Shown: one piece after another, positions 6,736 to 63,655 of the stretch
Layout: each line of letters opens with the position of its first letter
Numbering within the stretch: the stretch's first letter is position 1
Assembly (NCBI GenBank): GCA_036346225.1
Contig: JARFIW010000831.1
Span: 2,046,001 to 2,110,000 of the forward strand
From: Platerodrilus igneus
Taxonomy: Eukaryota > Arthropoda > Insecta > Coleoptera > Lycidae
Direction of reading: 5' to 3'
DNA: 64,000 nt
Program-made: the position numbers and the translations under genes
The notes under the pieces: generated by a model
Databases searched by the model: none
Told to the model about the DNA's origin: nothing
What the model saw: the letters and a program-made list of their open reading frames with translations, nothing else

Positions 6736-6738
6736 TGT

Positions 6739-8494: not shown

Positions 8495-8818
8495 CTTAGT
8501 CTGTACCTCTTTGCACTTTTTATCAATCCATTGTTCTTTAGCTTTCCTGCATTTGCGAATAATTTCCCATTTTATGGTTTTGTATCTCTGTTTTCCTGTT
8601 TCGTCTGATTAATTTTTGTATTTTCGTCTTCTATTAAATTCAGGATATCTTTTGTTATCCATGGTTTCTTATTTTCTTTTTGTGTATACCCTAGAATATC
8701 TCTGGTCGCCATGTCTAGGTTGGATCTAATGTTATTCCATTCTGTTTCCCGATATCGTTGAGCAATTCATTTGACTCTTTTTCGAATCTTTCTTGAATAT
8801 CTTTATCTTTTAGTTTCT

Positions 8819-9539: not shown

Positions 9540-9971
9540 TCTACGCTCCGACTCGCAAAATGTTCCCGACTTTAATTCTTAACTTTCCGATCGCAGCCTC
9601 CGAAGTAGTCCCCTCCCAGAGATCCGAATGGGGGACTATTTTATCTCCGGAATCTTTTACCCCAGAGAATGTGTCATCATTTTATCATATTTTAGGTGCG
9701 CTGTGTACTTGGGAGGTGATGTGGTGGTTTCCCGTTGCCTTCCACATCGCGGTTGTGTCTTAGACTGCCATACCGACTCCTATAGTCTCTGCCAATCTAA
9801 GTACCGAAAGAGCCGCTGCACTTTTTCGGGGACCTGTCTTAGTCTGGTTTTTCACTAACGACCCTACTACTTTGGACCTGTACTTCGACTATTTAGCTAA
9901 TTAGAGCACGCAAGCCATTTTACCTGTTCTAGTAATCTAGAACTTCGGCAAGGTGCAGGTTCATTCGAAAT

Positions 9972-10313
9972 GGAATTCGAGTACAGTGAAGGAAAATTAA
10001 TTTAAATTGTTGGTTATTTTCATTTTCATCTTATACTATATATACTATATACTATATACTATCATGCCGGAGACTTGTAAAAGTCACTGATAGTTAGTTG
10101 TTTTCATTCGAGTATAGCGGGTGCATGAAAAATATTTTGTACTCATCAATACACCGTGATTTGTATGTAATTCAGGAACTGGAATGATTGTTTTGCAGAG
10201 GGAAATGTGCCAGTCTGACGAGCTGCGGCAACACCGAAACCGGTCATTGGTTTTTTTCTTTGCAAAATAACCAACAATTTACATTAATTTTCGTTTACTA
10301 TACTCGACTTACT
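9972..10313. repeat. About 340-bp sequence with 48-bp inverted ends
   Basis: The left end (9972-10020) contains AAATTGTTGGTTATTTT preceded by GAAAATTAAT. The right end (about 10262-10313) is its reverse complement with a few changes (CGAGTATAG in place of CGAGTACAG). The interior has no coding potential and contains ACCGAAACCGGTCATTGG near 10232. It could be a small non-autonomous DNA transposon or the 3' end of a retroelement with an inverted terminal part. No target duplication was identified. Confidence 0.5.
10032..10063. repeat. TATAC-type microsatellite
   Basis: A short run of imperfect ACTATAT units (ACTATATATACTATATACT and onward) inside the interior of the 340-bp inverted-repeat sequence. 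Confidence 0.7.
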
Positions 10314-13300
10314 TTCCCAATGTGAGACAGAATTGTTTATTATTAATTTTTGCTATATGGAATAATGTGCTGATATCTCTGAACGATGCACATCCGTCAG
10401 CATCTTTTCTTTTGTATCATAGCTATCCGCTTTTCTAAAAATTACTAGATTGTCACGTTTTGTTTTTCCTCTCCAACAGTAACGCATATAAATTCTGTAT
10501 TGTGTTACAAAAATTTTAAGTTCCCTTTTTAATTCAATACAATTCGTATATCTAAAACTTATACATAATTAAAAGAAAGTTTTCATAATTTTGAAACACT
10601 ATTTATTATCATTTCATTCTATTTTATCTAGTAAATAAATTCATCGTTATATGTACTCCAGTTTTGTGTTTAACGTTATGCTACAACTCGTACATGCTAG
10701 TTAGAATTTCCATAAATTATATTCAAAGTGATGTAATTTAGTGCGATTGCGCGCACCTGTTGTTTTGAATACTCAAGTGTTGAGACCTCGTTTGTTCACG
10801 GAGTACGAGAGTCGACCTTTTATCGTCCTGGTGACAAGATGCAGAAGTTAATATTATAGGCGACTTGCGACTAGCAATTCATTTCGTGCGATAAATCGAT
10901 CCAAATGTGTTAGACAGTTCATCATGCGCAACACTGAAGTTTTTGGTTAACACTGAAGTTTTGAGTCAACACGGAAGTTTTTGGTTTACACTGAAGTTTT
11001 GGCTTAAGAATGGCTATGCGTAACAACTAATTTTTAGCGTATAAAATGTATACGAATGGAAACCTGCAGTAATGGCATTCCACCCTTTAATTTTATGGTT
11101 CTTGATCTTCAGGATATTGCCGTAACAAAATGGACAACAAGTTTTTGCTGTCATTATGCAATATTAAAGGCGCGTATATGCTTCGAGTTTATCTATTAAA
11201 TGGTTTGTAACAATTTGCACTCTACGTTCGAGGTCGGTAAGTCGATTTTCCATTGTTATGAAAATCATCTGTTTGACGTACAACGTTTAGTGGTTATTTT
11301 TTCTCTAATTAGAAGATATCCAAGGTTAAGCGGTAATCTTTGTAGTTTAAACTATTGAAAATTAATATCTTAATAATCATATTCAAAATTTTGATCTTTG
11401 AACATTACACTAAATTAAACTCTTGCTATATAGGATTGTTTACCAAAACGATCTGTTCAAGAACTTACATTGTGAATCATACTAAATGGATGTCTTTATT
11501 AGAATTTACTTATTTACGTTGATTTTTTTAATACAGTTGAGTAGTTTCTTACACATGATACTTTTTTAACATTACTAATTAAAAGATATCATTACATAAG
11601 TAATTCACTAAAAATGTACGTCGTTTGATCAGTACTGGAAAAATGACAAAAGCTAATAATTTTGGTAATGAAATATATAATGCCTATTTACGTTAAAAGC
11701 TTTGATATGATCAAGTTTATTACAGAAATAGAAATGGTTAAATAAACACTTACAAAATTTATGGTAGATTCCTGTTAGTTTGAAACAACAGTAATTTTAG
11801 TTAATAGATGTCTTGGTTTCTAACAAGTCTAATTTTTTTATTTATAAGTGGTTGATCACACCTCATACATATTTTTGGATTGTATAAATCTTATATGACC
11901 CAAGGGTGTATAAAATTAATAAGTAGAGTGTCCATGCACCATTGACCAGTAGCAAATTCTATAAGTGCATATTACTTGTGTGATTTATTGATTTTAGTAT
12001 TTCGAGACGCAAACTGCTGTTTCCAATGTATTTTTATGTACTTTATTTTATTTCAGGATATACGTTTATACCACCTACGAATACAAAATCTTGTATTCCA
12101 ATAACTGACCCATCCGTATTTATTTAACGACCCCCCTGATAGTCTCTAAAAACCGCTGAAGGTAGAGGGCAGAGCTAGTACGGAAGTCTACAAAAGTCAG
12201 TTTATGTTAATACGGATAAATCAACATCTTCTACACGACTTTTGTTAGAAATATGTTTCTCTGTCGCTACATAATGTGGCTTGACAACAAACAGAGAAAA
12301 TAAAATTGTTTCAAGATATGTTACGTTTATTTTTCAGCATAAATTAAATACCCTTTTTCCCTGGTTAAGTCATTACCCGCTCGAATAAATTCCATTTCCA
12401 TTCTTAAATTCTCCAACAATAGCCTATATAGTATACCTGTTCAGAATAAGCACGCTTTAACATAAATTTAACTCAAATCCATTTTGCTTTTAAAACGAAA
12501 ATCTATTCGATAAATTACATATTCAATACCTTGTTTTAGGTATCCGTTAATTTGTTAAACATTCCGATAACGTATAATTGCTATCTCTTGTGTTTCCCAT
12601 CTACAGACTTATCGAAGTATGGATCCTACTATTACTTGATAGCGTGCTTTCCAGTTTGCTAATCGCGCTTTGATAACGCGAGGATTGCAGTTCAAACTCG
12701 TGTTATTTGAACTAATTTTTAATTTGATTCTGCAGCTTGTACTTCAAGAGCGATGCACGTTTTTTTGTTCGACAAGTAGGAGGTTTCTTGCGTGTATCGG
12801 CAAGTTTTTTCGCGCTTACCCATCCTAATCAGATTCTCTTTTTAGCTCTTAGCTGGAGGCCAAATTGGTTCTTTTCTATGTAGGCCCAACTGTTCTTTGC
12901 CACAGATCAACTGCCGTTGCTTGTAGATCGCTAGTGCCGTTATGGTAACAGGGTAAATAGATCCCGACGATTGTGGCAATGTGGTGCTGATTCTCTCCCG
13001 GTGGCGTGTAAGCTAAGTATTCCAAAACTTGCAGGTATACAACTTGTTTTCTTTTGTGTATATCAAGAGAATATTCCATATCTGCGTTTGGTGTAGTTAC
13101 GTGATAAGAAACGTAGCACTGTAGGACTATTGTTTGTTGCTGCGAATCGATATTATCGATCTACGGGTGTGATGTACCATTGTTAAAAATGTTTCATAAA
13201 AGCTGTCACACGCTTAATCTTTTCTACTGATTAGTTTATTTTACAAAAGTATTATGTACAATTTAAAAGAATGTTTGACAAAAGCTCTCACACGTTAATT

Positions 13301-19414: not shown

Positions 19415-19710
19415 GACGACTGCGTGAATCAGACAGCTTCACGTATGCCTGCTGATCCCATGGTTTCTAGATTCCTCACACGAACCGCTTGAATAATGTC
19501 AGGCGAGCATTTTTCAAAAAAATACGCCCTTGATTGGATGAGAGTAAAATAGAGGTTTCGCATGTGAGTGTTGTCACTTACGCTAAAGATCCCCACCTTG
19601 CTTGGAATAACAAGGGTGCGGCAAAATTCAAAATTTCCAGGTAAAAGAAACTCGCATTCCTGGACAATGTAGTATCTTCGGCTGGAGCATTGCAAAATCA
19701 AATGGATAGA
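19415..19710 (+). mobile_element. tRNA-derived SINE, copy 2
   Basis: Plus-strand copy with a strongly decayed head and box B, and a well preserved body (GCGAGCATTTTTCA, TAAAGATCCCCACCTTGCTTG) and tail (AATGTAGTATCTTCGG, GGAGCATTG). It is flanked by TATTCCAGAGAA at 19403-19414 and again at 19711-19722, a 12-bp target duplication, which fixes both ends. Confidence 0.85.
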
Positions 19711-24073: not shown

Positions 24074-24365
24074 GGCGACTGTAGATCAGATGGGTTCGCG
24101 TATGACTACTGATCCCAAGGTCCCGAGTTCGATTCCCGAAACCGAACGCTTGAAAAATTTTAGGCTAGCATTTTTCACAAAAGCATGCCCTTGTTCAGAT
24201 GAGAGGTAAAATGTAGGTCCCGTGTGTGAGTGTTTTCGCGCATGCTAAAGATCCCTATCTTGCTTAGAATAGCAAGGGTTCGACAAAATTCGGAATTTCC
24301 AGATAAAAAGCTCGCTTTTAGGTCAATGTAGTATCTTCGGGTAGAGCATTGGAAAATTAAATGTA
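24074..24365 (+). mobile_element. tRNA-derived SINE, copy 3
   Basis: Plus strand. Head GGCGACTGTAGATCAGATGG with box B-like GAGTTCGATTCCC, body GCTAGCATTTTTCACAAAAG, CATGCTAAAGATCCCTA, and tail TCAATGTAGTATCTTCGGG.. GAGCATTGGAAAATTAAATGTA split over the end. The first base of the hairpin arm (C to T) has decayed. Same head subfamily as copy 1. Flanking duplication not seen. Confidence 0.85.
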
Positions 24366-26567
24366 GGGACCAGTTACTGCTGAATCCCGTCAGTGGCGTC
24401 TGATCGGTTGCACAGTTGCGATTCAAAATACAAAATCTTTCAACTGAACTTAACTAAACAATTAGAAGGTCTAAAAGGCCTTAACACCCATTTTTTGTTA
24501 CAAGTAAGTGTTATATACAAAAGCAAACAACTTGATGGTTAAGAGATCAAGGTGTTCACGCCAATTAGATTTGGGCGAAGGTACCCTGTGAAGTATATCA
24601 GGATAATGTCCTACGCTATGCATTCATTGTAGGGCTTCAATTTCTAGATTGCAGTTTTTCTCATAAAACGTTATTAAATTTTTTGTTGTCCTCTCTCTAC
24701 TTCCCTGGCTTTACCACTGGTAATTTATATATAGATTTCTAAAATTTTTTTTGGTAATTGATTTTGTAGCAATAACGTACTGCAGAAATTTTGGAAGTAA
24801 GATATTGCATTGAATGTTAGTTGATCGACAACAAAATCCGAATATAAGTATGAAGATAGGGGAAACAGTTTGTAACAAAGACTTATCGTAGTATCCAACT
24901 GCTGTCGTAAACGGTAGCAAAATAAAATCCTTCACTTTTGCCCGATCCAGTTCGAGGGTTCTGCTTTTACTCTTTAATGTTCAAACATCAAATCCCCCAT
25001 ACCTGCGAATATTGTTCATTTGGTTTCTCCGCGCGTGCGCTCACGCTTCATTTAATTAAATGATAATTCCGAGTAAATGAAATATTCGACAATGTAGTCA
25101 TGTGCGAAAATAGCACTGTTAACTCCTAATGTATTCAGTTCAAGTGTAATGGTAAACGTGTATACAGCTAGTTGCATGTATAGAAGTTTATTTACAATTT
25201 TTATTAGAGATTGGCATCAACAAATTGCGTAACACATTAACGGTAAAAGTTTATGCAGTTCATAACCTTTCACGAAGTTTAATGCATCTTAATTAAAGCG
25301 CATGTGTTGATAGTCCTAACATTATAGCTGAACTAATGTATACACTTCGTGGTGCAATGTACTTGAGGACAGCGTGCAGCGTGCAACATTGACTGTATGG
25401 AAACTGCTTATGTCAGGGCGATGCCGCAGAAGCTCTTGTGGTTGCAACCCAACTACAAACTCAGAGGATCACTGAAACGTCCTGAAGGAAGATAGTGGTC
25501 TAGCCGAAAATACGGTTAGTGCTGGAAACCTCTCAGATGAGTGGAATCCACCTTGGAAACTCGATGCAGTCAGTGACTTCAGATGCCGTGAATGTTGACG
25601 GACTATTGCTGAAGTTTTAGGCGGGCGATTGCTCTCTGCTTGATAACTAATGAAGTGCCGTGTTAGGACTTCTGCATAAAAGATGCTATACGTAGGTGTT
25701 GTAGTTCTGCGTTACTTCAAAACATGGGCGACTCGCAAAACAATGGTAGAAGAATAACGTAATTACTCTTAGCATTTGAAAACGCTCTTCGATAGTAACT
25801 TGTTTCACTACAATCTCCTGCCCTGGTGAAAAGTAACTGTAGAGAAATAATTAATTTTCTCCTTTTTACATCTATTTATAAAGGTATTTTGGAAATAGGT
25901 TTAATTGGTTATAAAATTACTATAAAAATTCTCATTTGTTAATAATGTTGCTACGTAGACGCTACTAATAGAGTAAATTTTTTGTTGTTCTGCCTACTGG
26001 ATATGTAGATATGATTTGCTTTGATACTGTTTTGATATACGAGTAGCATTATAAATGTGGAGTTTTACTTTTTCATCGGAAAGATGATGCATAATTAATT
26101 TAGCTGCTTATTCATGGAGATCGTATACGAATAAAATTTCTTTATATTTTCCGACTGTAGTAGTAGTGTTTTACAGGCAATCTATGACCGCTTTCGGTAC
26201 GTATGTCGTATGTCAGAAAGGTATTTTTGCAGATTAATTTACAGTTAACAAATCCAATAAAAATGTAAATGTACTCTTCGGGAAAATATTGTAACAATAA
26301 TGCCAAACAATCTAGAATCGAACGAGATAAAGTCATTAGGCGAACAATGGTATGATTGACAGCTAGAAATGTGTATTTAAAGAACCCAATTTAAAGCATA
26401 CAAAAGCGAAGAATCAAAGAAGGGTCTCTAGTAATAAGTGGAATCTTTACAATTAGGTATATAAACCGTACAACTCGGTAGGGAGCTCAATTTCAACCGA
26501 AGTATTAATCCATAAGTATTATGAAATAAATTATATGATCAATTGCTAAAATAAATACCTTGATGTC
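24366..26567. other. Unassigned DNA
   Basis: No protein-like frame. A GC-richer part at about 25370-25690 contains CCTGAAGGAAGATAGTGG and AGCCGAAAATACGG, a retroelement-type 3' motif discussed in the findings; it may be a repeat of unknown type. Confidence 0.45.
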
Positions 26568-26578: not shown

Positions 26579-28701
26579 CACGCGTCAAAGTTAGCCCCAA
26601 CTTTTGAAAAAATAACTTTCTATAGCTCATTCGTTTGCACATTGTTTGCACATGTATGCACATCCGGTATTTTTGTTTGCACACTTTTCGTTTAAAAATT
26701 ATTCAAGAAATAATTTAGGAAGACCAACTTCACACTGGCCCCCCGGCTTTCAGGAAATTTATTTTAAACCGGCGGAATTAATACATCATCGTTTGCACAT
26801 GTATGCACATCCACTATTTTTGTTTGCAAACCTTTCGTTTAAAAGTTATTAAAGAAACCATTGTGGCGGATCAACTTCGCACTAGCCCCCTCGACATTCA
26901 GCAAATTCATTTTAAACCGACGAAATTGATAGATCTTCATTTGCACATGTATGCACATCTATTATTTTCGTTTGCACACTTCCAGTTTAAAAGTAATTTA
27001 ACATTCAGCTTTCAACTTTTTGTTTGCACACCACTGTAAGTCAAAAAATTTTTAAATTTAATCACGGATGCTAACTTCACACATGCATTTTTGTGCAATT
27101 CTAACATGTGATGGCGAAAATCAAAGTATCTTCGTTTGAACATCATGAATCAAGTAGCTTTTTCGTTTGCACACGTTTAGTTTAAAACTAATTTAACATT
27201 TACTTTCGTAGTACCCGCTATACGAGAGCTATTGTTCAAAATGTGCAAAAATGGATTACAATGAGACTAATTGATACCTTTTGGTTTGCACATTATGAAA
27301 CACATCAACTTTTTGTTTGCACACCACTGTAAGTCACAAAATTTTTTAATTTAATCAGGAGGGTTAACTTCACACATGTCTAATATCGCATTTTTGAGAA
27401 ATTCTAACATGTGATGACGGAAATCAAAGTAGCTTCTTTTGCACATCATGCATCAAGTCGATTTTTCGTTTGCACACTTTAACTTCAAAACTTATTTAAC
27501 ATTTACTTTCGTATTACCCGCTATACGATAGCTACTGTTCAAAATGTGCAAAAATGGATTGCAATAAGACTAATTGATATCTTTTCGTTTGCACATTACC
27601 AGACATACACATATACCTATACCGTTGATAGAGAATATTTTAATCAACACATTTACTAAAATATTGTTTTCAAATGTATATAGTCCAATGTATGTACATT
27701 ATTATAAAGCGCCACAAGATGTCGCTTGTTTGATAATTCCGTTTTCAAGCATCTCGTATGAATACTAGACAACAGGAGGTATGTGCTTCCCCTCTAGCAA
27801 AACTTCTGTTGTATTTTTGACTATTAATTTGCAGTTAGATGCACCCGCTTGAGTTGATGCTAGTGGCAGTTAGATAATTAAACAGTATTAGAGGTTTTTA
27901 CAACATTTTATAAATAACGGCATTCGTACCGGTTGTTTAAAACAGCATCGGTAGCTATCGTATAACGGTGACTACGAAAGTAAATGTTAAATAAGTTTTG
28001 AACTAAAGGTGTGCAAACGAAAAAGCGACTTGATTCATGATGTGTAAACGAAGATACTTTGATTTCCATCATCACATGTTAGAATTGCACAAAAAGCGAT
28101 ATTGGACATGTGTGAAATTAGCATCCGTGATTAAATTTAAAAAAATTTTTGACTTACAGTAGTGCGCAAACAAAAAGTTGATGTGTATTGTAATGTGCAA
28201 ACGAAAAGGTATCAATTGGGTTCATTGTAACAATGTTTTTACGTTTTCAACAGTAGCTAACGTATAGCGAGGACTATGAAGCTGAATGTTAAATTACTTT
28301 TAAACTGGAAGTGTGCAAACGAAAATAATAGATGTGCATACATGTGCAAACGAAGATCTATCAATTTCGTCGGTTTAAAATGAATTTGCTGAATGTCGAG
28401 GGGGCTAGTGCGAAGTTGACCCGTCACAATGGTTCTTTAATAACTTTTAAACGAAAGGTGTGCAAACAAAAATAGTGGATGTGCATACATGTGCAAACGA
28501 TGATATATTAATTCCGCCGGTTTAAAGTAAATTTCCTGAAAGTCGGGGGGCCAGTGTGAAGTTGGCCCCCCTAAACTGTTTCTTGAATAATTTTTAAACG
28601 AAAAGTGTGCAAACAAAAATACTGGATGTGCGTACATGTGCAAACGAATGAACTATAGAAAGTTATTTTTTTCAAAAGTTGGGGGGCTAACTTCACGCGT
28701 G
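26579..28701. mobile_element. Foldback-like DNA transposon with long repeat-built inverted ends
   Basis: A 2,123-bp element that begins CACGCGTCAAAGTTAGCCCC and ends with its reverse complement (one base fewer). The left arm runs to about 27600 and the right arm starts at about 27950, leaving a unique centre of some 350 bases with no coding capacity. The arms are built from repeats of TTCGTTTGCACA, which comes in pairs about 30 bases apart; pairs recur every 145-154 bases over most of the arm. In the left arm a unit of about 293 bases is duplicated in tandem (27015-27307 and 27308-27600); the right arm has one copy. The exact 11-bp flanking duplication shows it moved as a unit. Known foldback elements have this architecture and Mutator-type elements make 8-11 bp duplications; which superfamily this is cannot be decided without a transposase. 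Confidence 0.85.
27015..27600 (+). repeat. 293-bp tandem duplication inside the left arm
   Basis: Both units start ACTTTTTGTTTGCACACCAC and contain TTTAATCA, AATTCTAACATGTGATG, TTAACATTTACTTTCGTA, ACCCGCTATACGA and AAAATGTGCAAAAATGGATT. They differ at scattered positions, so the duplication is not recent. Confidence 0.85.
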
Positions 28702-33215: not shown

Positions 33216-35469
33216 TTTTATAAAGGTTAAAATTAGAATTTATAGTAAAACAACTTTCAGTTACTTACGTTTTTCTCTCTAGGACAAAACGACAAACTAT
33301 AAATTTTCCATATTTCATGTGGAATTATTTCACACTTCACAATAACTTATTTCGCGTGTACATTTTTGTCTTCAGAGACATGAACTGTACGTTACTTCAT
33401 GGTCAACTGATTTGTTTACAAATCCGGTCATATTTAAATTCACCGACTATCTATAGACAAGCGCAAAGTTCGCTGTTTGTATAAACGAGGTTTTCGGATA
33501 TTCCATGGTGTTATGCTTGTATATTAATATCAATGCGTTTATTCTGTCACGTACGATTTCAAGTTAATAGCATTGATTTGCCTGGATTTTCATACTTTTC
33601 GATAAATAAATCGTTGTTTGTTTAAATAAATTTGGTGAACTTTGATTTTCAATAAACATGCTTTGTTTGTTTCCAATAAATCAGGTGTCGTTTTAATTCT
33701 CTAGTCACGTAGACAAATTACAATGTATGGATTAAATTATCGGCGTTTTCTACCCTACGCATTATTAAATCTGCTTGTATTAATTAGGATTCTTGATGCG
33801 TTATCTACGCGTGTCGCGTTTCTACTTGCATAAGAGCATGTAAAATCAATAAATCCAATGCGAATAGCTTTCGTTGTAACAAACAAATATATCGGTTGGG
33901 GTTGAATACCATGAAAAGAAACTCCAAGAACTATTATTTTAAACGATCGTTAAATGAACACCTGCATGTTTTGAAAGATCGACTTCTATGTATTTTGGAG
34001 CATAACAAGACAAGTTCAAAGAATATTGTTCAACCGACTGTCGCGAAGCACGTACTCATCCACGTGGACGCGGGCAGCTATATCGATTTTCTACCACTCA
34101 AGCAAGCTTAAAACGCGACATCAAATATGCATAAGACGGGAATAGAGATATCACAGGTGGGGTTTTAAGACGCCACTGAAATGTATGATTGGTCGGAATA
34201 GTTAGTTTGAGAATAGACGAGCACGCGACAGGTGAATGTGTGAATTTGTTAAGATAGCGTGTTGACGCGAGCATATTGCTAGAAGTTTAAAACGGTTAGA
34301 CAAAATTTGGAGAAATGTTACTTCAATTATGTATTTCGTGTAAAGTTTGGCCAAAAAGGGGGCCTAGCTTTATGATAAATACTCTAACAAAATTAATAGG
34401 GCTCTCTTTATTCTTGACTCTTGCATCGCATAACGACATACAAAAAGCAACTGACGAAGCTTGTAAGTATTAAAATTTGTAAAGTTTAGTATTAGATTGT
34501 TGTGACCTTATAGTTTGAGATGCGTATAGTGTCGAGTTTATTTAAATTTAACTACGGTCCAACGAATACTTTAACAAGCTCGTAAATTAATAACGCGACA
34601 ATAAACAAGTGTAATATACATGGATTTGGATATTCAAATGGATATTGAAAGGGTAGCACGAAGCAGCTTAGATTGTGGTCATCTTTAAAACACCTTGTGA
34701 AGCGCACGCAAAAACCAATTGGCCGAGGGGTTCAGGAACATAATACATCGTCAACGGAGATGGAATCTTCAAGTTTTTCCAGGTAACGCATTTGAATTTG
34801 CTGTTTTTTTAACTGTTAAAATTGTAATGTGTGAGAGTGAACTTTAATGGGTATTTTACGGTATTTTATGTATTGAAAAGGATACATAGCTGACTATTAA
34901 TATGGTATTTTGAATATAAAACAAAAGGTCTATTGAATTGCTTGATGAATTTAAATTTAATTGTTAAGAGTACATGGGTTTTTTTTTTAAGTTTGTAGTA
35001 ATAGTATGCAAAGTGGAAAGCATACATTGATAAACTGGGTTATTTTGAGCTCACCATACTCCAGCGTAGTAATAAACAAAGAGAATGTATTATTTGGGGC
35101 CCATTTACTCCTGTTGCATTAAATGTGTTAAAATTTCAATTTTAAAAACAAGGACTTAACAAAAATAGCTTTTATTGAGGTGTAACTTGAGCACCGAACT
35201 GTAAATAACTATGAATATTATTATTTGTAAATAGTGGTAAATAAATATTGTATGATTGTTGTATTATTTTGTGATTTTATTTGAATGGTGTGTGAACGGA
35301 AAAGAGAATGAGAGTAAATTTAGGTATACGAGAAGAAGCCCAGCTGAGCTAGCCAGTGAAGCTACTGAAGTAATTAATTGGATAGAGCAGAAAGCGGGTA
35401 AGAAAAATGTTGTGAATTTTTAGATTTGTAAATTGATTTTTTTTGTGTAACTGGCAAGTACCAGAGCAT

Positions 35470-35605
35470 GAGCTCGAATGTTTTTTTAGGAAGTTCCAGA
35501 GACTGACCAGAAGGTTCCACGGCAATTTATGACGCCCAATCTGTGGGGCTCGAATGTTTTTTAGGAAGTACGGAGCACAAAAAGGGTCTACGGCAATATA
35601 TATAA
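35470..35605 (+). repeat. Imperfect tandem duplication with primer-site-like motif
   Basis: GCTCGAATGTTTTTTTAGG at 35472 and GCTCGAATGTTTTTTAGG at 35548 begin two similar units of about 75 bases; both go on to AGGAAGT.C.GAG and end ACGGCAAT.TAT. Between them lies TGACGCCCAATCTGTGG followed by GGCTCG (35530-35552), which resembles a lysine-tRNA primer binding site with its usual downstream GGGGCTCGAA. This may be a decayed LTR/leader junction. Confidence 0.5.
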
Positions 35606-35777
35606 ATGATATTAAAATAATTGCGTTTAGCAAATTTAATAAATAAAACAGTATATACGATGTATAAATAAACACCCACTTTACGAAGGATCGAGGGTTT
35701 TTAACTATACAAAGCAAGCTAGTATTTACATAGCCATAAATGAAAGAATTTGTTTGTTTCATAAAGGGAATAAACAT

Positions 35778-35818
35778 TCATCGACTAGTTTCGATCTCTC
35801 TAGATCTCATCAGGATGA
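35778..35818 (-). ncRNA. Type I hammerhead ribozyme
   Basis: On the minus strand the order is: helix I TCATC (35818-35814), core CTGATGA (35813-35807), helix II GATCT with loop AGAG and AGATC (35806-35793), core GAAA (35792-35789), helix III with ACTAGT (last A of GAAA to 35784), cleavage base C (35783), helix I closing GATGA (35782-35778). All conserved core bases are present, helix I pairs 5 of 5, helix II 5 of 5, and helix III is a two-pair stem that is also a palindrome. The cut would be after the C at 35783. Minimal type I hammerheads with short helix III are known from Penelope-like elements and small retrozymes; those are thought to work best as dimers. No Penelope reverse transcriptase is visible beside it. 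Confidence 0.85.
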
Positions 35819-35928
35819 GATACATCATTGCGATTTGTAAATTCTATTCTTTACATGCCTAATCATTTCAAGTGTTTCCTTTTGTAAATAGTTTAGAACG
35901 GATAGCAATTTGGTGATCAACATAAGGT

Positions 35929-35941
35929 AATCAAACCCAAC
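35929..35941 (+). repeat. Target-site duplication (left) of SINE copy 4
   Basis: AATCAAACCCAAC, repeated exactly at 36239-36251. Confidence 0.9.
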
Positions 35942-36238
35942 TTTACATGTGATTTTCCAATGCTCCATCCGAAGGTACTACATTGGCCAGGAAGAGAGTT
36001 GTTTTTACCTGGAAAATTTGGAATTTTGCCGAATTCTTGCTGTTTCAAGCAAGGTAGGGATGTTTGACGTGCGTGACAACACTCACACACGGGACCTGCA
36101 TTTTACCTCTCATCCGAACGAAAGTGTATTTTTGTGAAAAATGCTCGCCTAACATTTTTCAAGCGGACCGTATCGGGATTCGAACCCGGTACCTTGGGCG
36201 TAGTAGTCACACACATACCACTACGCCACGAAGCCGCC
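35942..36238 (-). mobile_element. tRNA-derived SINE, copy 4
   Basis: Minus strand: head GGCGGCTTCGTGGCGTAGTG with box A TGGCGTAGTGGT and box B GGGTTCGAATCC (reading through 36238-36165, one base altered), body with GCGAGCATTTTTCACAAAAA, CACGTCAAACATCCCTACC, and tail CCAATGTAGTACCTTCGGAT.. GGAGCATTGG, then AAAATCACATGTA. The 13-bp exact duplication defines both ends and shows there is no poly-A tail. The host sequence is that which carries the hammerhead ribozyme 120 bases away. Confidence 0.95.
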
Positions 36239-36251
36239 AATCAAACCCAAC
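36239..36251 (+). repeat. Target-site duplication (right) of SINE copy 4
   Basis: AATCAAACCCAAC, identical to 35929-35941. Confidence 0.9.
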
Positions 36252-44164: not shown

Positions 44165-44177
44165 TGTCTGTCGTACA
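44165..44177 (+). repeat. Target-site duplication (left) of SINE copy 5
   Basis: TGTCTGTCGTACA, repeated exactly at 44477-44489. Confidence 0.95.
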
Positions 44178-44476
44178 TGGGCGGCTTCGTGGCGTAGTGG
44201 TATGTGTGTGACTACTACGTCCAAGGTCCCGGGTTCGAATCCCGACACGGTCCGCTTGAAAAACGTTAGGCGAGCATTTTTCACAAAAATACACCTTCGT
44301 TCGGATGAGAGGTAAAATAGAGGTCCCGTGTGTGAGTGTTGTCACGCACGTTAAAGATCTCTACCTTGCTTGAAACAGCAAGGGTTCGGCAAAATTCCAA
44401 ATTTTCCAGGTAAAAAAAAACTCGTTTCTTGGCCAATGTAGTACCTTGGAGTGGAGCATTGGAAAATCAAATGTAA
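44178..44476 (+). mobile_element. tRNA-derived SINE, copy 5
   Basis: The best-preserved copy. Head GGCGGCTTCGTGGCGTAGTG with box A at 44190-44201 (TGGCGTAGTGGT) and box B GGTTCGAATCC (44231-44241, exact). These are the internal RNA polymerase III promoter. The body has GCGAGCATTTTTCACAAAAA, GAGGTAAAATAGAGGTCCCG, CACGTTAAAGATCTCTACC and CAAGGGTTCGGCAAAATTCC. The tail holds CCAATG (44433-44438) and CATTGG (44457-44462) around an inner stem, and ends AAAATCAAATGTA without poly-A. The 13-bp exact target duplication fixes the ends at 299 bases. It lies inside the I/Jockey-like remnant and therefore is younger. Confidence 0.95.
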
Positions 44477-44489
44477 TGTCTGTCGTACA
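44477..44489 (+). repeat. Target-site duplication (right) of SINE copy 5
   Basis: TGTCTGTCGTACA, identical to 44165-44177. Confidence 0.95.
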
Positions 44490-48469: not shown

Positions 48470-48753
48470 TCCGACGAGTATGTTAACACAAAATTGCCGC
48501 ATGTGGAATGTGAAAAAATCTTCGTACGATTCGCCAAGCACCACTGCATGATCATAAAGTGACTATTTGATGCACACTATAGTCAAGCGATGTCATTGGA
48601 TCTTGCTTTTTGAAAACGATGAGGTCGGAATGCAATAGTCAATGGTGAGCTGTATACCCGCACTGATAATTGATTATTTTTAGATATTGATGTGGAAAAC
48701 GTGTGGTTCCACATCGAGTACAAAATTGGACGTTTTGCGCGAAATGTTCCCAT
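48470..48753 (+). pseudogene. Tc1/mariner-type transposase, part 1 (split by LINE)
   Basis: The plus-strand sequence carries family pieces: SPSTT and a HDHKVT segment (form AP.HD.KVTVWCAL), FENDEVGMQ, an aspartate-containing VENVWFHIEY where the second catalytic box would be (DVDNMWFQQDGA.CH), and FAR.VP (form LLREKFPGR). Catalytic residues are lost. It stops exactly at the duplicated ATGTTCCCAT where the RTE-like LINE entered and continues at 51328. Confidence 0.7.
48744..48753 (+). repeat. Target-site duplication (left) of LINE copy B
   Basis: ATGTTCCCAT, repeated exactly at 51328-51337. Confidence 0.85.
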
Positions 48754-49618
48754 CATCATCATCATTAGGTCTTCAGTCCGGGAATTGGTTCGACGAGTAC
48801 CCTCATTGTTTTCTATTCTGAACTAATCTACACATTTCCCTGAAATTTGCACAGTCCGCATCTATCACTATCTGATCTAGGTCTACATCTACCTCCTTTT
48901 TCCTATCTGTGCTTGTAATATATTCCATACTATTCCCCCAAAAATGCATTAGAACGTGTGCTGCCTTTTATTTCTTCTGTTTTTTTACACAGATGTTCTT
49001 GTTTCCCTACTATTTCTATAACCTATTTGTTATTAAGTTTGTCTGTCCATGCTAACATCTTCATACATCTGAAGCACAGCATTCCAAAAGGCTGCTACCG
49101 TTTTTCTGCCTACTTTCCTAATGCCCGTATTTCATAGGCATATTGTGCATTGCTCCACATATATGCTTTTAACAATTTTCTTCTTGTTTCTATGTGTGTT
49201 GTCTTTGATCATAGGCGCTGTTCTTACTTGTTAGATGCAGTTCGGTCCCTTTCTATTGTTTTACAATTATATACCCTATTTCTCCGACATTCAGTGGTTG
49301 TGAAGGGGAATAAGCAGACTGTGGCTACCAAGTTCCCCCAGCACTTGAACATTTGCCGATTTAACATTTTTTCCAATATATCTTTTCGCACGGTCATCAT
49401 TAGTTGCAGATATTTCACAACCAACACCTGTAGTTGTTTATAGTAATCATCAGATTTATCGGCGCTTATTTTTTCGTCATTTGGTTTTCCGTCTCAAAAC
49501 TGGTTGGACACGTATATGCTGAGCTACCCTACACACTTCCCTAAAATTCCCACACAGCCTATATACAGCTCGGTTCCATTGTTTTCTAATTATATGCCCT
49601 ATTTCACCGAGATTCAGT

Positions 49619-49630
49619 GGTATGTAAAGG
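49619..49630 (+). repeat. Target-site duplication (left) of SINE copy 6
   Basis: GGTATGTAAAGG; the partner at 49930-49941 is GGTATGTGAAGG, one difference. Confidence 0.8.
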
Positions 49631-49929
49631 TTAGGCGGCTACGTGGCGTAGTGGTATGTGTGTTACTACTACGCCCAAGGTCCCGGATTCGAATCCCGAC
49701 ACGGTCCGCTTGAAAAATGTTAGACGAGCATTTTTCACAAAAATACACCCTCGTTTGGATGAGAGGTAAAATGGAGGTCCCATGTGTGAGTGTTGTCATG
49801 CACGTTAAAGATCCCTACCTTGCTTGGAACAGCAAGAGTTCGGCAAAATTCCAAATTTTCCAGGTAAAAAAAGCTCGCTTCCTGGCCAATGTAGTATCTT
49901 TGGGTGGAACATTGGAAAATCAGATGTAA
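49631..49929 (+). mobile_element. tRNA-derived SINE, copy 6
   Basis: Head GGCGGCTACGTGGCGTAGTG, box A TGGCGTAGTGGT, box B with one insertion-like change (GGATTCGAATCC), body as in copy 5 (CACGTTAAAGATCCCTACCT), tail CCAATG (49886-49891) to CATTGG (49910-49915), ending AAAATCAGATGTA. It splits one of the 3' modules of LINE copy B; the module continues after 49941 with GGGTTAAGCAGTCTGTGGCT. The same site in copy A (about 6018-6034) is empty. Confidence 0.95.
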
Positions 49930-49941
49930 GGTATGTGAAGG
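49930..49941 (+). repeat. Target-site duplication (right) of SINE copy 6
   Basis: GGTATGTGAAGG, partner of 49619-49630. Confidence 0.8.
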
Positions 49942-50099
49942 GGGTTAAGCAGTCTGTGGCTGCCAAGATCCCCCAACACTTGGACATTTGCCGAATTAAT
50001 AGTTTTCCCGTAAATCCTTTCACACAATTAACATTATTCAAGAATATTGCCCAACCAATACTTGTAGTTGCTTATAATAATCATCATGTTTAAGTACGG

Positions 50100-50459
50100 T
50101 TATTTTTTTGTCATTAGTTTATCCATCTTGGGACTGGTTGGATGCGTACCTCCATTTCTATTCTGAGCTAGCCTACACATTTCCCTGAAATTCCTACAGC
50201 CTACATTTTTTACTATCTGTGTACTGTAGTCTAACCTAGGTCTACCTCTACTTCTCTTTTTTCCTATCTCTGCTTGTAATACATTCCGCACTATTCCCTC
50301 ATGCCGTAGTAGTGGCTTATCATTCTATCTCATCTATTTTTTTTACCGTTTTTCACATATTTCTCTCTTCCCTTACCATTTTTAGTACCTCTTTATTCTT
50401 AACTTTGTCTGTTCATGATATCTTCATCATACGTCTGTAGTACCACATTTCAAAGGCTT
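50100..50459 (-). pseudogene. LINE ORF2 C-terminal end (copy B)
   Basis: Continuation of the reverse transcriptase of copy B after a frameshift. The frame 50291-50100 holds GKKRSRGRPRLDYSTQIVKN and NFREMCRLAQNRNGG, matching copy A. The stretch 50459-50292 holds the decayed WCYRR..KIS part. Confidence 0.8.
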
Positions 50460-51315
50460 CTACCTTTTCTTGTTCGCTTCTCCTACTGTCCAGCCTTTAC
50501 AGCCGTACAATGCTGTGTTCCACACATATGTTTTAACCAATCTTTTCCGTGTTTTTATATTTGTTGTCTTTGAACACAGTAGTTGCTTTTTCTTGTTAAA
50601 TGTAGCACGACCTTGTGCTAATCTTTGTTTTATATCTTTTGTGCTTTTCCCATCTTGCGTTATTTGGCTTCCTAGGTTGCAGAAATCCTTAACCTCTTGT
50701 AAGTTAGTGTTACCTATTTGCATTCTTCTTTTTGATTTATTTTCCCCTCCTTTGCATACTAGTACTTTAGTTTTATTTTTGTTAGTTTTCATACCGTATC
50801 TCTCTGTTAGAACTGTTTCCATTTCATTGAGAGCAGCTTCTAACACTTCCTTGCTAGATGCTAATACCCCTATTTCATCTGTAAATCTAAGCATATCAAT
50901 TTTTTGTCCCTGCATAGTAATTCCAAATGTCTTCCCACATTTGACAGTATTCATTGCCTCTTGAATGTACAAATTAAAAATTAATGGGGATAGGGCACAT
51001 CCCTGTCTCACCCCTTTCTTAATGTTTACTTCTCTACGTTCCTGCTCTAATTCTATTACTGCTGTTTGCTCTTTGTATAAGCTATGTACTATTCGTCCAT
51101 CCCTATAACTCATTCCAATCTTTTTGAGTATTTCGAACATTTTTTTCCATTTTACATTGTCGAATGCTTTTTCTAGATCTACAAATCCTATATACACGCT
51201 TTCCCCTTTTTCTATTGTTTTCTCCATTATGATTCTCAGAGCTAAAATAGCCTCCCGTGTTTCGCCTAAACCCAAATTTTTCTTCTCCTAGTATTTCTTC
51301 AGCTCGTTTTTTCAT
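50460..51315 (-). pseudogene. LINE reverse transcriptase (copy B), truncated
   Basis: A 271-residue frame (51275-50460) plus a short frame upstream (51315-51103) cover the reverse transcriptase palm and thumb. Visible are SVYIGFVDLEKAFDNVKWKK (first catalytic aspartate), GVRQGCALSPLIFNLYIQEA, a second box LRFTDEIGVLASSKE where FADD has become FTDE, so the enzyme is dead, and KDFCNLGSQITQDGKSTKD. The N-terminal endonuclease and the first reverse transcriptase motifs are absent because of 5' truncation. The frame is otherwise better kept than in copy A. Confidence 0.9.
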
Positions 51316-56163: not shown

Positions 56164-58090
56164 TCATTGATTGTCTAATCTCGCGACCCTTCCCGCGAAT
56201 TCTTTTAAGGCTGTCCAGAACGCCCTCTGGTTAACCACTTCCCCGACTTCCTCTAGGCTCTTTGGCCATGCCAGACCTAGAATAGCTAGTTTGCTATCAG
56301 CCAACCCTCAATTTCCCGCCTCAAGCGGGCAGTCGTAGAGCACGTGCTCTGCGCTTTCCGCGCCCTCACCGCATACGCAGCGGTCGCTGTTGGTTAGTCC
56401 GAACCTTTGTAAATACGCCTTTACGGCGCCGTGCCCTGTTATCAACTGCACCATTTTGTGATCGAGCTTGACCTCGATCCTACCTCTAGCTTCTATGCTC
56501 GGTAAGAATTTGTGGGTCAACCTGCCCGTGGCAGCGTTGTTCCACCTCTCTTCCCATTGTCGAATTGATTTTTCGCGCAGCTTTCTTTTGATTAAAGACC
56601 TCGGTATCGACGAATGTGATATTCGAAAGTCGCCCGTCGCAGCCTCTTTAGCTAATTCGTCAGCCCTATCGTTTCCTACGTTACCATTGTGCGACCTGAC
56701 CCAACAGAACTTTAAACGTCGAAACTCGAGCGCCGTACGCGCTATCCTCCAGACGTCCGCTTGGAGATCTGTCGAGGTGTTCATGTTTGTTAAAGCCGTT
56801 AGCGCCGATTTACTATCACTGATTATATAATACTCGTCTCTGCCCGTATGGTTTATTACGTAATCGATAGCCTCTCGTATGGCTACCAATTCGCACTGGA
56901 AGATAGTGCACCAGTTCGCGAGTTTGGTTTGAAACCGAAACACCTCCCTTTCCTGCTTATACACGACAAACGCCGCGCCTACTTGCCCATCGTCCATACG
57001 TGAACCGTCGGTATAAATTCTGATACCCATCGCGTCCTCATCACCTTCGACAAACTCGATTCCTCTAATATCAGCCGGGTGCCCCAACTCAGATACAACG
57101 ATCTTTCTTGCAATTTCCCTATTACCAAGATTAAGATCTTCGATAATTTCGCGCCCTTTTCCTATATTTATTAATCGTCTATCTCGAATCTCCCTAACGA
57201 CATATTCGATAGGGAGAGTCCTACTGATCACCAGGACAGCCTCTGTGGAGGTGGTCCTGTACGCCCTCGCCGCTTTTACCGCGGTTATGCGTTGTACGCT
57301 CGTCAATTGACGCATCTCCCGGACTTTACAACCTTCTGCCCATACAGAAGCTGCGTACAGTATTGCCGGCTCAATTGCTCGGGCATAAACCGTCCTCAGC
57401 GATTCGCCCCTGAAACCCCACTTTATTTTAGCCGCCGCCATCATTTTATTTGATATTTCGCCGCCCTTACTTTTTAGGTATTGTACGTGCGCTTTCCAAT
57501 TTAATTTATTGTCGATCTTGACGCCGAGGTAGGTAATACAATCTTTAAACGGATTTTCTCCTCCTAGCTCTAACCTAGGAGGTCTCTGTCCTGGTTTCGT
57601 GCCGAAATAAAGCGCCTCTGACTTCGCCGTGTTAAATTTTAATTTTACCGCCTGCGACCATTCGTGTAATTTATTAAGCGCCTCGTTCGGTTTTGTGCGC
57701 ATATCCATTAACAATCTCGATCTTACAATTAAAAGTGTGTCATCTGCAAACCCAACGATTGAGCATCCTGCACCCTAAAGATGCTCTCATACAACAACTT
57801 CCAAAATGTGGGACCAGAACATGACCCTTGCGGGCATCCCCTTTCCACCTCACGCGACAGAACTTCACCCGGAATTTCAACCTGTGCCAATTGCCCCGAG
57901 AAATAGCTCTTGACCAAAGACATCAAGTTTCGCGGACAACCCCTACGATCTAACTCGCAAACGATTAATGGCCACCAGGCAGCATCAAATGCTCCTGAAA
58001 TGTCCAAAGCAACAACGACACAGTACTCTTAATTTCCCCGACAACGAACTCTAACGCGTCCTTCCGCGGCATCGGTACCTCCTGGCTCCT
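56164..58090 (-). pseudogene. ORF2 (reverse transcriptase, RNase H) of R1-type LINE
   Basis: Begins after the deletion with RKDALEFVVGEIKST (reverse transcriptase before the first catalytic box), changes frame at about 58020, then ALDISGAFDAAWWP (first aspartate), RGCPQGSCSGPTFWKLLYE, a frameshift near 57770, and FADD at 57739-57750. The 468-codon frame 57714-56308 continues with YLGVKIDNKLNWKAHVQYLK (thumb), YTDGSRMDDG (about residue 235, RNase H first D), FQCELVAI (E), IISDSKSALTAL (D) and ADELAKEA (last D); all four RNase H acidic positions are present. It ends LITGHGAVKAYLQRFGL and CVCGEGAESAEHVLYDCP, the CCHC-like R1-clade tail. A TGA at about 56306 interrupts it; the same frame runs on 46 codons to a second stop at 56164, the likely true end. 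Confidence 0.9.
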
Positions 58091-58099
58091 GGAACACTG

Positions 58100-59840: not shown

Positions 59841-62800
59841 TTCAAAGCGTATTACAGAAAGCTCAGGTTTCGTTTTGTAAAGACTTCTGTTACAAGTAAA
59901 ATGAGCGGTATGTTACAAATTTAAATTTTCCTGAAGAGGCGGGAACCTTGTATTAATTTTAAGAGTACGCCAGCTAACTACAGTGGTACAGAGTAGGTTC
60001 TAAGGAAAAAATAATAAAAAATAAACATTTGAAATGGCTGAAATACAAAAACTACACTATTGCCTATAACCACTTACCTTGAAAGGCTTTTTCTATTATC
60101 ATAATTAAGGGATGCCAAACAGTCTTGCCTCAGCAATCTTTTTCGGTATTTTTCCTAAACGGAAGACTGTTGCGCCGAATAAGTCTCCTTTGCTTTTGGT
60201 TTCCTAAATTTATCACACTATACTTAACCTCGTTCGACAACACCTTAAAAACAGTCTTTAAATTTTGGAATTAAAAAAAAAGTAAAATAAAGAGGCCTCT
60301 CCCCAAATACGACTACATCACAGAGGTAAAACGGCGAAATATTTATTCGCAATGAGGGGATACCAGAGTCATCACTGGGGTAGCTAGATATCATTATACA
60401 AATTTGTCTGTTTACCTAGTTTATAAATAAGTCCAAGTCAAATTTCACCTACACATAACATTTATTGACATTAAATAATTACCATAGAATGCAGATATCT
60501 TCCTAACAAAAAACTTACTTCTTAACATCAAATTGGCCATGTATACTAAAAAAGAAAATCTTAAAGAATTAATACTTATCAAATCGATTTTCCTAAGTTT
60601 TGTGAATATTTGTAGTTACACTCTAAATCCTATTTCAGGGTATATCAACTTAGCAATAAACAAAAACGTCGATCAATACAGCTTTTCATGTCCGCATTCC
60701 ATAGTCTCTTAAAATTGTCAACTTATTAACTTCTTAACTGGCACAACAGCACATGCAGAACCTACCTTAAAAATTACCATGCACATACTTTTAAAAAACT
60801 TCCAATTCCAACTTTCCACACTAGCATACTTAAAATTAAACAAGCTCCAGTTCTGGGGTACTTGAATTAGCCCTTCACTATTCAAATAATCCAACAAAAC
60901 AATCGTTTTAGCATTATGCCAACGTCCTATAAACGAACAGAAACCATCTATAAGTCGCATCTTAATTTGACATTAACTCATTTCTACATTGTTTAAAAAG
61001 GTTTATTTACTCAAAGTTTATTTTATAGCTTCTGAAGAAGAACATCCGAAACATCAATGGTTCATATTCCTATTAAGTCACCAATTCACATAAAAAGATA
61101 TCAAATTCCCATTCCTGGACGGGTGAAAAACTCGCACGTTGCAATCCTTTCTTATATTTACGATCCTATAATTACGTTATAGATTTTTATTCCACCGACG
61201 CGACAGTAAAATCGACGAATACACTAAGGCCGTACTGGACACACTTTCAATCCCGCGTGGCCTATATCTTGTCGTGTTTACATTTCGATTTCTACTTTTG
61301 AACTTAGCTTCTGTACTTTTCCAGGCTTTGTCATTATATAACTATCTTCCTTCTTCTGGTATTCCTTATTAATGCGGTCAGAATCCAATAACACAATGTA
61401 ACATATTTTACCTATGCTGAATAAAAGGTTATTTTCACGTTAATTGCGTAAAAGTCTGTACGTTGTATATAATTGTATTATTGTTGTAGTATGATATTAT
61501 TATAATGTGCTTGATGGTTGCGACGGTGACAACTCCCATATTGTAAATGATCTTTTTATGAGAAGCACATACGTAGCGTCTTATAATAATAAGATATGTT
61601 ACTTTGCGGTTTTGAAATAAATCATCGTCCTGGATCATTACGTTTACAATGTATTTAAAACAAATAATGTTATACCTTATTATCTGAATTAACGCAAAGC
61701 GTTACACTTCATTAGAAGATTAACCGTTCTCATCTTGGTTTATCATTGTTTTCATAATTTGCTTTAATTCGAAACAAACAGAACAAGCACATGTACAGTT
61801 CATCTAAGCACTTAGTTTTTTATTGGGTGTAAAAGTTATTTCGAAATTGCACATTATACAGATCTGTAGATAGACAGCTGCCTTTATCATTGTTTTGCTT
61901 ACTCTCTAGATGGGAGATGACGTGCATCAAGCAGTTTCTGCCAGAAGCACAATGTTGCACAAGTGTAGTTATCAACAGTCTTCACAGCAAGACTATAATG
62001 AATATAAGTGCACATAGTAAAATTGATATTTAAATAATTGTGTATTTAAATAAAGTCGCTCTAAACCTGATTAAATTAAAAATGCTAAATACCTGTTCTA
62101 CTTTCGCTTATTAATAAAATTAACATTATAATCAGAGTTAAATAAATCATTCATTTACAGCAGTTTAAAACGATGAATGGTTGAGTTTTTTGTAGTTTAT
62201 GCCCAATAGATCCATCAACCCAAACGTTATTATATTTTAATTCTTATTGGCAAATTTACATAATTTATTTTTTGTTTGAAAGTAATAATTAAAAGGTTAT
62301 TGCTCTTATTTACAAATAGATCTTATAAAATTTGAAATTGAAAATTATGTATCTAGGATTAATTAATAAATAATTTTTTTGGCAATCGACTCATAAGTAC
62401 GTAAGCAGCATGCAGATGTTAATAAAATACAAACACTTCTTGGGAAATATAGAATCGCTTACCTTGGTTGTGTTGAAATTGACATCGTATCGGTTTTTGC
62501 AACGATTGGCACGTCAGCGATGCGGCTCAATTGTTTCTTTCAAAGCCAGAATGTTATCAAAAAATTGGAAGTTAGGTTTATCAACCTTCAATTAACAAAC
62601 AAATAAGAAATTTGTGGCAATATAGCTTAAAAACCATTCTATCAACAAATGGTACTTTTTAAAGTCAATTACTATGCGATTTTTTTAAAGTTTATTAGTT
62701 TAAAACTTATTAACGTATGTTCTAATTTTATTATTTCTCTGGCAATGGAAAAGAGAGTCGAGCTGGATCATCGTATTGCGGATGCTGTCAAAATTTATGA

Positions 62801-63655
62801 CATCTGATTCAACGACGCCAAGACACAAGATTTGTGATTGTATTACATCCTACCAATTGATTATATTTGATTAACAACTAACTCTCTGTTACCACATCTG
62901 TTTTAACAAGACCTCCATGAGTGCGAAACGCGTTGATCAGAATATGCTTGTGGCCGTTTTTTAGTCGCTTCCCATAAACATTTCTTGCTTATTCATATAT
63001 ATTTTTGTATACCACCCCCTCAATTTTTACTTTATTTTTGTGTCGCCGCGCGCCCCTTCTTATAAATTTCAATGCTTTTTTGTATAATGTGCAAACACCT
63101 ATTGCACGCCACGTACTTTTGCAACGTTTGGTTGGTTATCTAATCAAAATGTTTATTACTATGCCTCGACTATATGAACTCTTTTCTCAGGGTGTCCACC
63201 TACTTACCGTGGGTTCGGTGGTAAGTAGATGTGCAATGCCCAACCAAACTGCACCATCTTTTGTTTTACTACTTTTATATAAATTTACAACGGTATATGC
63301 CAAAATTTAATGATCAACGTAGCCTTGTGCCAAATGAATTAATAATACACAATTTCTGACTTTGACGTTTTAAGATATTTCACAGCACTCACCTGGATTA
63401 TACTTCGTTGCTGGCCTTTTTTTACTGCTGGCTCAAGATCTTTGTCGCCGTATGCGTCTTTACATGGATTCACTATCGTTGGAAACTTTCGTATCGCCTC
63501 CAGGTATCTTAGTATAATTTTGTTGACCCCAAATCTGAAATAAATAACCCGAATTTTAGAATTTTGAATAACCGTTTTGTTTACTTCCCCTGCGCTAATT
63601 CTTCCGTATTACTTTCTTCGTAGCCTTTAACTCTTCCAATTGCCGCTCTCAAATC
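59841..63655. other. Unassigned AT-rich DNA
   Basis: Close to four kilobases without protein-like frames. A frame of 101 codons at 63005-63310 is hydrophobic, has no known motif and no context, so it is not called. Retroelement-type 3' motifs (CCGAAACATCAATGG at 61047, GCGAAACGCGTTGATCAG at 62919) are discussed in the findings. Confidence 0.5.

Follow-up and report, generated by a model that had tools for sequence, protein, structure and literature searches.

A loop-less minimal hammerhead ribozyme in Platerodrilus igneus and a putative small retroelement mobilized by Penelope-like elements

The hammerhead motif on the minus strand of the window (the whole 64,000-nucleotide stretch of DNA analyzed here) is best explained, with a probability of roughly 70%, as the ribozyme of a small non-autonomous retroelement (a "retrozyme") that has a unit of about 522 bp, lacks coding capacity, and is mobilized by Penelope-like elements (PLEs). 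On the best reading, the one copy of this retrozyme-type element in the window is little diverged, truncated at the 5' end, and single-armed. We base this on the motif itself, the repeat family to which it belongs, covariation between hammerhead families, clustered insertion ends, TA targets, head-to-head order, and the same architecture in the PLEs of this genome, all of which were observed directly. The coordinates of the features are collected in Table 1.

Table 1 Features of the window, with the strand and the evidence for each
Feature	Position	Strand	Evidence
Minimal type I hammerhead ribozyme	35778..35818	-	Core scan, Rfam, recurrence in genome copies
5'-truncated single-arm copy (unit positions 1-224) of the ~522-bp non-coding tandem/dispersed repeat	35601..35818	-	Genome copies; 3' end adjoins a short TA run
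Second loop-less minimal hammerhead, CCAGT/ATTGG, ACCGGT	10210..10250	+	Covariance model from the first site
Small element around the second hammerhead	9962..10322	+	59-nt inverted arms 9962-10020 / 10264-10322, 85%
Decayed copy of the 297-bp hammerhead tandem-repeat family	62421..62974	+	Two pieces, 62-65% identical
tRNA-derived SINE beside the hammerhead	35942-36238	-	13-bp target duplication 35929-35941 / 36239-36251
Further copies of the tRNA-derived SINE family	44177-44479, 49634-49932, 24074-24366, 19470-19709
Broken LINE copies, one family, internal duplications	5147-9331, 48751-51275	-	RT domain in the second
Other LINE piece	56308-58390	-	RNase H domain

Results

Structure and significance of the hammerhead motif

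Read from 35818 to 35778, the minus strand gives TCATC / CTGATGA / GATCT-AGAG-AGATC / GAA / ACTAGT / C / GATGA. Hence, all core residues, the 5/5 pairs of helix I (TCATC/GATGA), the 5/5 pairs of helix II (GATCT-AGAG-AGATC), and the palindromic helix III of the original prediction can be read directly from the sequence. The type I features are a CUGANGA/GAAA core, a UH cleavage site, and three helices with an open helix I, helix III being available only between two molecules. The prediction had recognized ACTAGT as a self-complementary hexamer, which is correct, and here we add one correction: because the loop is absent (zero nucleotides), this helix cannot close within one molecule and forms only between two copies. 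Cleavage is predicted after C 35783, between 35783 and 35782. A single-strand fold of the window copy favors other pairings (-8.0 vs -6.5 kcal/mol for helices I + II only), and no second hammerhead lies beside it. The window copy of the element looks inert.

With the Rfam type I model RF00163, the site scored 22.9 bits (E = 0.0049, 601 bases scanned), which is below the gathering score of 34. Rfam scans of the full 64-kb window did not report it, presumably through scan filters, and a 5-kb scan reported it as HH9 (19.5 bits, E 0.33). In our structural scan of the window, it was the sole site. Among 300 dinucleotide shuffles, helix I reached at least four pairs in one hit and five pairs in none. 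An order-4 Markov simulation of 2000 Mb produced six perfect type I motifs over all the loop sizes tried, one of the six with a zero loop. The recurrence of the motif in genome copies of the same repeat is decisive and excludes a chance origin.

The repeat family that carries the motif

We searched the 2.71-Gb assembly (1723 contigs) with window positions 35640-35942; 40 of 1596 candidates were scored and 52 matches listed, the window included. Among those listed, the 51 matches besides the window are 82-96% identical (48/51 at 88-95%), and in 42 of them the match starts at position 35818 of the window, where helix I, and with it the hammerhead, begins. Thirty loci of the family were fetched, and in some of these a tandem period of 522-524 bp is seen. 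The second copy in tandem or at a fixed distance that had been proposed as a check is therefore found at this spacing in some genome copies, and none lies beside the window copy. The same spacing qualifies the proposal that the motif marks the end of a retroelement. It is the 5' edge in the window because the copy there is 5'-truncated, and it recurs every ~522 bp in tandem copies. The body of the element was rightly sought in the flank: it lies downstream on the minus strand, from 35777 to about 35601, and does not extend across 35349-35777. The other flank that had been considered, from 35819 upward, has no match to the family.

The one 522-bp unit that was examined has a G+C content of 0.33 and a longest frame of 66 aa. 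The unit is thus a non-coding tandem repeat with a type I hammerhead and a G+C content below 50%, as retrozymes are, the window copy itself not being tandem; its size lies outside the published 150-450 bp. A Pfam search of 10 nearby window ORFs found neither a reverse transcriptase nor a GIY-YIG endonuclease, so that, with no frame above 66 aa in the unit, nothing like the ORF of a PLE (reverse transcriptase plus GIY-YIG endonuclease) is seen, and the earlier statement that no reverse transcriptase is visible stands. A PLE protein encoded beside the motif was rejected on the same search, the 10 ORFs being drawn from 59 frames of at least 55 aa between 28.5 and 43 kb. Three weak Pfam matches (E 0.035-0.24), all below the curated cut-off, were taken as chance; one of them is the match to TAS2R (E 0.035) of a 142-aa ORF in the 35349-35777 flank. 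The earlier proposal, a small non-autonomous retroelement whose ribozyme is of the dimer type, is supported by this non-coding repeat family and its copies in the genome.

Against the column majority among 43 copies, the window copy differs by 2.7%. Comparison of 46 ribozyme regions, one of them from the window, gave 31 sequence variants, every one 41 nt long. Variability within the family is 0.035 in the ribozyme, 0.046 in the flank, and 0.041 at the 12 core positions; extra conservation of the ribozyme over the flank within the 522-bp family was not shown by this comparison (0.035 vs 0.046). Variation inside the family looks like decay. One locus (L081) overlaps another (L080) and was omitted from the end counts and from the variant and variability tallies.

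Two further observations concern the junctions and targets. At four loci (L061, L062, L075, and L079), several copies start at AAGGGTTATAAACCACT (about u505-522 of the unit), and some head-to-head junctions of the element are palindromes of AAGGGTTATAAACCACT, resembling palindromes reported at PLE inverted junctions. At two others (L063 and L076), the TA-repeat targets have common outer flanks (like GTGGATTTAAAGGGTTAAA), which suggests that the element goes into the TA-rich center of a palindromic repeat.

Among the neighboring repeats, the tRNA-derived SINE at 35942-36238 does not contain the hammerhead. A SINE with a built-in ribozyme was rejected: this SINE copy is flanked by a target duplication of its own, and no hammerhead occurs in the four further copies that were aligned. 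The window also holds a symmetric 2.1-kb inverted-repeat element at 26592-28697, the arms of which are 147-bp tandem repeats.

Further hammerheads and covariation

A covariance model built from the single sequence 35818-35778 and run without filters gave 10210-10250 as the next best match (19.8 bits, E 0.0027). This site reads CCAGT CTGACGA GCTG CGGCAA CACC GAA ACCGGT C ATTGG and is 41 nt long like the first one. Rfam alone leaves it unsupported (HH9, 15.8 bits, E 0.64, cut-off 52). Helix II has 3/4 pairs, and because of its one C.C mismatch this hammerhead is probably decayed. Under a relaxed zero-loop definition, which was set after 10210-10250 was known, the window holds 2 sites vs 27 in 1500 Mb of simulated sequence. 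The surrounding element (9962..10322) reads as a head-to-head insertion; its fold has a z-score of -7.4, a value that the arms alone may explain. A 49-nt inverted match (78%) was also noticed between 5101-5149, in the 3' flank of a LINE, and 10300-10348, at the right arm of the element around the second hammerhead. No third hammerhead was found in the window by covariance model R2, which gave nothing better than E 1.1.

The genome search with RF00163, in which 74 of 337018 candidates were scored, listed at least 60 matches, most of which lie in tandem arrays with a period of about 297 bp. The ribozyme of this family is also loop-less, with helix III ACGCGT (ACGTGT in some), and reaches 40.2 bits with RF00163. 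The type I model that had been proposed for a search left the window site below the cut-off and brought out this other family. Its unit falls within the published 150-450 bp of retrozymes, and arrays of tens of units exist. The decayed copy in the window consists of an inverted piece (62421-62620, minus strand) and a forward piece (62679-62974, plus strand), and the hammerhead relic at about 62898-62940 retains GCGAAACGCGT.

When the three hammerhead families were aligned with one ribozyme each, 35/36 cells paired (97.2%), and both sides had changed in 9/12 pairs. In 500 shuffles, none was as high on four measures and one on the fifth, while slid structures paired in only 21-44% of cells. The comparison rests on three sequences, which is few, and on an alignment fixed by the shared core. 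The three loop-less ribozymes (35778, 10210, and the 297-bp family) covary. The compensating helix II changes that were expected among other copies thus exist between the three families and not within the 522-bp family.

Candidates outside the genome were set aside. The pattern CTGATGAN{8,24}GAAACTAGTC occurred at 22 loci of viral contigs, most of which look like chance by eye; two of the contigs (L011 6710-6742 and L013 2966-2998) carry CTGATGA, a perfect 6-bp helix II, and GAAACTAGTC with no helix I. A query of 401 bases found no match in phage records.

Insertion ends, targets, and arm order

In 29 loci of the 522-bp family, 37/43 3' ends fall at u185-191 (10) or u216-226 (27), and six lie elsewhere. 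Twelve 5' ends are at u1, where the unit was cut, and the other 31 are spread over 28 positions. Rotating the unit leaves 33/49 3' ends in these clusters and shifts the majority of the u1 5' ends to u497-510. The two 3' end sites are 32-39 nt apart, which agrees with the optional 3' tail of ~30-40 nt known from PLEs. In the 297-bp family, eight of twelve 3' ends are at u98-103 (3) or u136 (5), and the remaining four are at u39, u70, u73, and u285.

The 3' ends adjoin TA repeats. For the 522-bp family, (TA)5 or longer was found at 31/42 3' ends vs 3/42 5' ends, and for the 297-bp family at 11/12 vs 0/12; random 40-mers of the window gave 0/5000. The families therefore have the AT-rich targets of PLEs. 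The window copy, whose 3' end adjoins no more than a short TA run, was excluded from the flank count.

Adjacent arms of the 522-bp family, counted by eye in the 29 loci, are ordered (-,+) in 15 cases and (+,-) in one. A second method, which also catches short palindromic matches, gave 18 (-,+), 3 (+,-), and 1 (+,+). In the 297-bp family, (-,+) arms occur in 5/6 loci. The 522-bp family thus shows the head-to-head order of PLEs, and the window copy is single-armed.

The end counts leave out pieces that come within 20 or 45 bases of the end of a locus. For the 297-bp family, 6 of 30 loci were used (L023, L024, L026, L028, L030, and L031), the omitted ones being same-place neighbors and a long array. 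The 522-bp loci were picked by similarity to the window copy (unit positions 1-185), so that 3' ends short of u185 are under-represented. This selection bias does not explain the two sharp 3' ends or the TA flanks of the family.

Penelope-like elements of the same genome

A genome search with the GIY-YIG model (150 of 6529 candidates scored) gave at least 149 matches. Among those listed, neighbors within 6 kb form eleven pairs by eye: ten (-,+), one (+,+), and none (+,-). In the three of the ten (-,+) pairs that were fetched (L103, L104, and L105), the arms are 96-99% identical inverted repeats with outward ORFs, and a TA repeat is present at 5/6 outer ends. Reverse-transcriptase motifs were recognized by eye in L103 and L104. 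Of four PLE arms, three share an end point and the fourth stops 35 nt short of it.

A hammerhead-like motif, CTGAYGA...GAAACTAGT, lies within 1.5 kb in only 2 of the 20 GIY-YIG loci scanned (L095 and L096). Its first helix II pair is wrong, and the model gave 12.7-13.0 bits (E 0.49-0.60); a match in L098 scored higher (14.1 bits) and was set aside, as it has no helix II. The motif recurs in pairs L103 (the L096 locus) and L104 with E 0.1-1.8 and is absent from pair L105. In L095, L096, L103, and L104, it stands 112-148 nt before the TA repeat, its score not being significant alone, and the string CGAAACTAGT is common to these four and the 522-bp element.

The 3' segment of one PLE sequence resembles those of the 522- and 297-bp elements no more than by chance (78 and 81 of 500 shuffles were as good). 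The sequence of the 522-bp element is not convincingly present in the PLE loci fetched (20 + 3, one place in both); short matches in seven of the 20 GIY-YIG loci reach 65-79% over 34-99 nt.

Discussion

Proposed cycle

Starting from transcription, the cycle may run as follows. Tandem genomic copies would be transcribed, two loop-less helix III hexamers would pair, and the hammerheads would then cleave as a dimer and release unit-length RNA. Judging from the shape of the insertions, a PLE reverse transcriptase with GIY-YIG endonuclease may cut both strands at a TA repeat, and reverse transcription may start at an internal position of the RNA, either 185 or about 217-224 nt from the hammerhead start, the two sites being separated by 32-39 nt. 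Copying toward the 5' end from both strands would yield copies in head-to-head order, with their outer 3' ends fixed and their inner 5' truncations at scattered positions. Transcription, cleavage, and the PLE protein as the mover of the RNA are the steps that we infer.

Such a course is in line with published work. In the parts of PMC11167929 drawn on here, the PLE protein cleaves and extends both strands, and reverse transcription starts inside the RNA at two adjacent sites. According to the relevant passages of PMC3846280, Penelope elements have inverted pLTRs, most often head-to-head, with an optional 31-bp tail and AT-rich targets, and pLTR sequences suffice to carry other DNA in trans. 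The tail is given as 31 bp or 30-40 bp across the corresponding passages of the two sources. The passages of PMC3846280 also report no cross-mobilization between two PLE types in a rotifer, which counts against our explanation. The role of cleavage is the weakest step of the cycle. In vitro, insertion is normal with hammerhead mutants of a PLE, and none of the reads ended at its cleavage site (PMC11167929, same parts); cleavage may therefore be dispensable for insertion.

Alternative explanations

The motif could be explained without a retrozyme lineage of its own. The 522-bp repeat might be an internal-deletion derivative of one autonomous PLE family, in which the hammerhead-plus-tail segment of 185-240 nt is a pLTR and the other ~280 nt replace the ORF, so that it would be mobilized by PLEs without being an independent lineage. 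The segment length (185 nt without and 217-226 nt with the tail) is close to the published pLTRs of 181-218 bp plus a 31-bp tail (passages of PMC3846280). Complete or partial AAGGGTTATAAACCACT opens several copies, whose starts lie near u497-510, palindromes stand at some head-to-head junctions as reported for PLEs, and CGAAACTAGT is common to L095, L096, L103, and L104. However, since no fetched PLE locus convincingly carries the element, the short matches at 65-79% being all that was seen, we regard this derivation as tentative and rather unlikely, albeit the most serious competitor. Distinctly less probable is a retrozyme or satellite that is moved by another retrotransposon, e.g., the LINEs of which fragments occur in the window, or that spreads by recombination, for which the tandem arrays of tens of units in the 297-bp family could be quoted. 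Against both speak the two clustered 3' ends, the TA targets, and the head-to-head arms, which are common to the PLEs of this genome and belong to the published PLE traits.

Two further readings carry hardly any weight. Retention of the window copy as a functional host ribozyme agrees with its intact core residues and is still very improbable, as the copy is 5'-truncated and 2.7% away from the majority, has a competing fold, and lacks a second loop-less helix III of identical sequence elsewhere in the window with which to pair; host genes near the motif were looked for by Pfam on the 10 ORFs. A chance motif in unique sequence might be argued from the one window copy, the Rfam score below the cut-off, and the palindromic AT-rich surroundings. 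Its probability is practically nil given one zero-loop motif per 2000 Mb simulated, a repeat family that carries the motif, and families that covary, and the genome copies already refute it. Mobilization of a small retrozyme by PLEs therefore remains the preferred reading.

Implications and comparison with known systems

PLEs have long been suspected as the mobilizer of animal retrozymes, and they are proposed in passages of PMC7229834, as a strong candidate, and of PMC7761336, on the grounds that retrozymes and PLEs coexist, are arranged in tandem, and have type I hammerheads in common. The PMC7229834 passages contain no insertion-end evidence for this, and a literature search, with subscription journals mostly outside its scope, found no published description of animal retrozyme insertion ends in the parts of the sources covered. 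In P. igneus, two hammerhead repeat families bear the structural signature of PLE insertion, and the PLEs examined in the same genome display the same one. As the two families and the PLEs share one signature, the proposal becomes testable in any genome from insertion ends. The loop-less helix III of three families offers a clean case for testing dimer-only cleavage. In general terms, we would put at about even odds that PLEs have their SINEs in animal retrozymes of the present type: hammerhead RNAs would be inserted in trans by GIY-YIG PLE proteins, which would prime on two strands at TA repeats and use internal start sites, the mobilizer would be recognizable from genomic ends, and a loop-less palindromic helix III would allow cleavage only in tandem, dimeric transcripts.

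Minimal hammerheads of PLEs and dispersed copies were reportedly described by Cervera and de la Pena in 2014 and by Lunse et al. in 2017. The P. igneus motifs share with them a type I core without a helix III loop and the proposed dimers. They differ in that they sit in a non-coding repeat unit and form three families in one genome. Dispersed minimal hammerheads are described in the accessible part of PMC7761336, and the likeness drawn here follows it together with passages of PMC6155905 and PMC6466107.

Compared with GIY-YIG PLEs, as far as the passages of PMC3846280 and PMC11167929 describe them, the families have the same head-to-head arms, an optional 3' tail of ~31-40 nt, AT-rich targets, and a hammerhead near the pLTR. 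Unlike PLEs, the element has no ORF, and no sequence similarity was found to the 3' ends of the PLEs fetched from this genome.

The non-LTR retrozymes of animals are likewise close (Cervera and de la Pena 2020, PMC7229834); the relevant passages describe them as non-coding, low-G+C tandem repeats with type I hammerheads and units of 150-450 bp. Both systems also coexist with PLEs and point to dimer-type cleavage when helix III is weak, and the 297-bp family falls within the published size. The 522-bp unit, the helix III without a loop, and the PLE-type insertion ends set the present families apart. The hammerheads of newt and axolotl satellites differ in their 330-350 bp units and, for HHR_Amex1, in a one-pair stem with a palindromic tetraloop, whereas they resemble the motif described here in having a palindromic helix III and in being active as dimers (same source, in the passages on these satellites).
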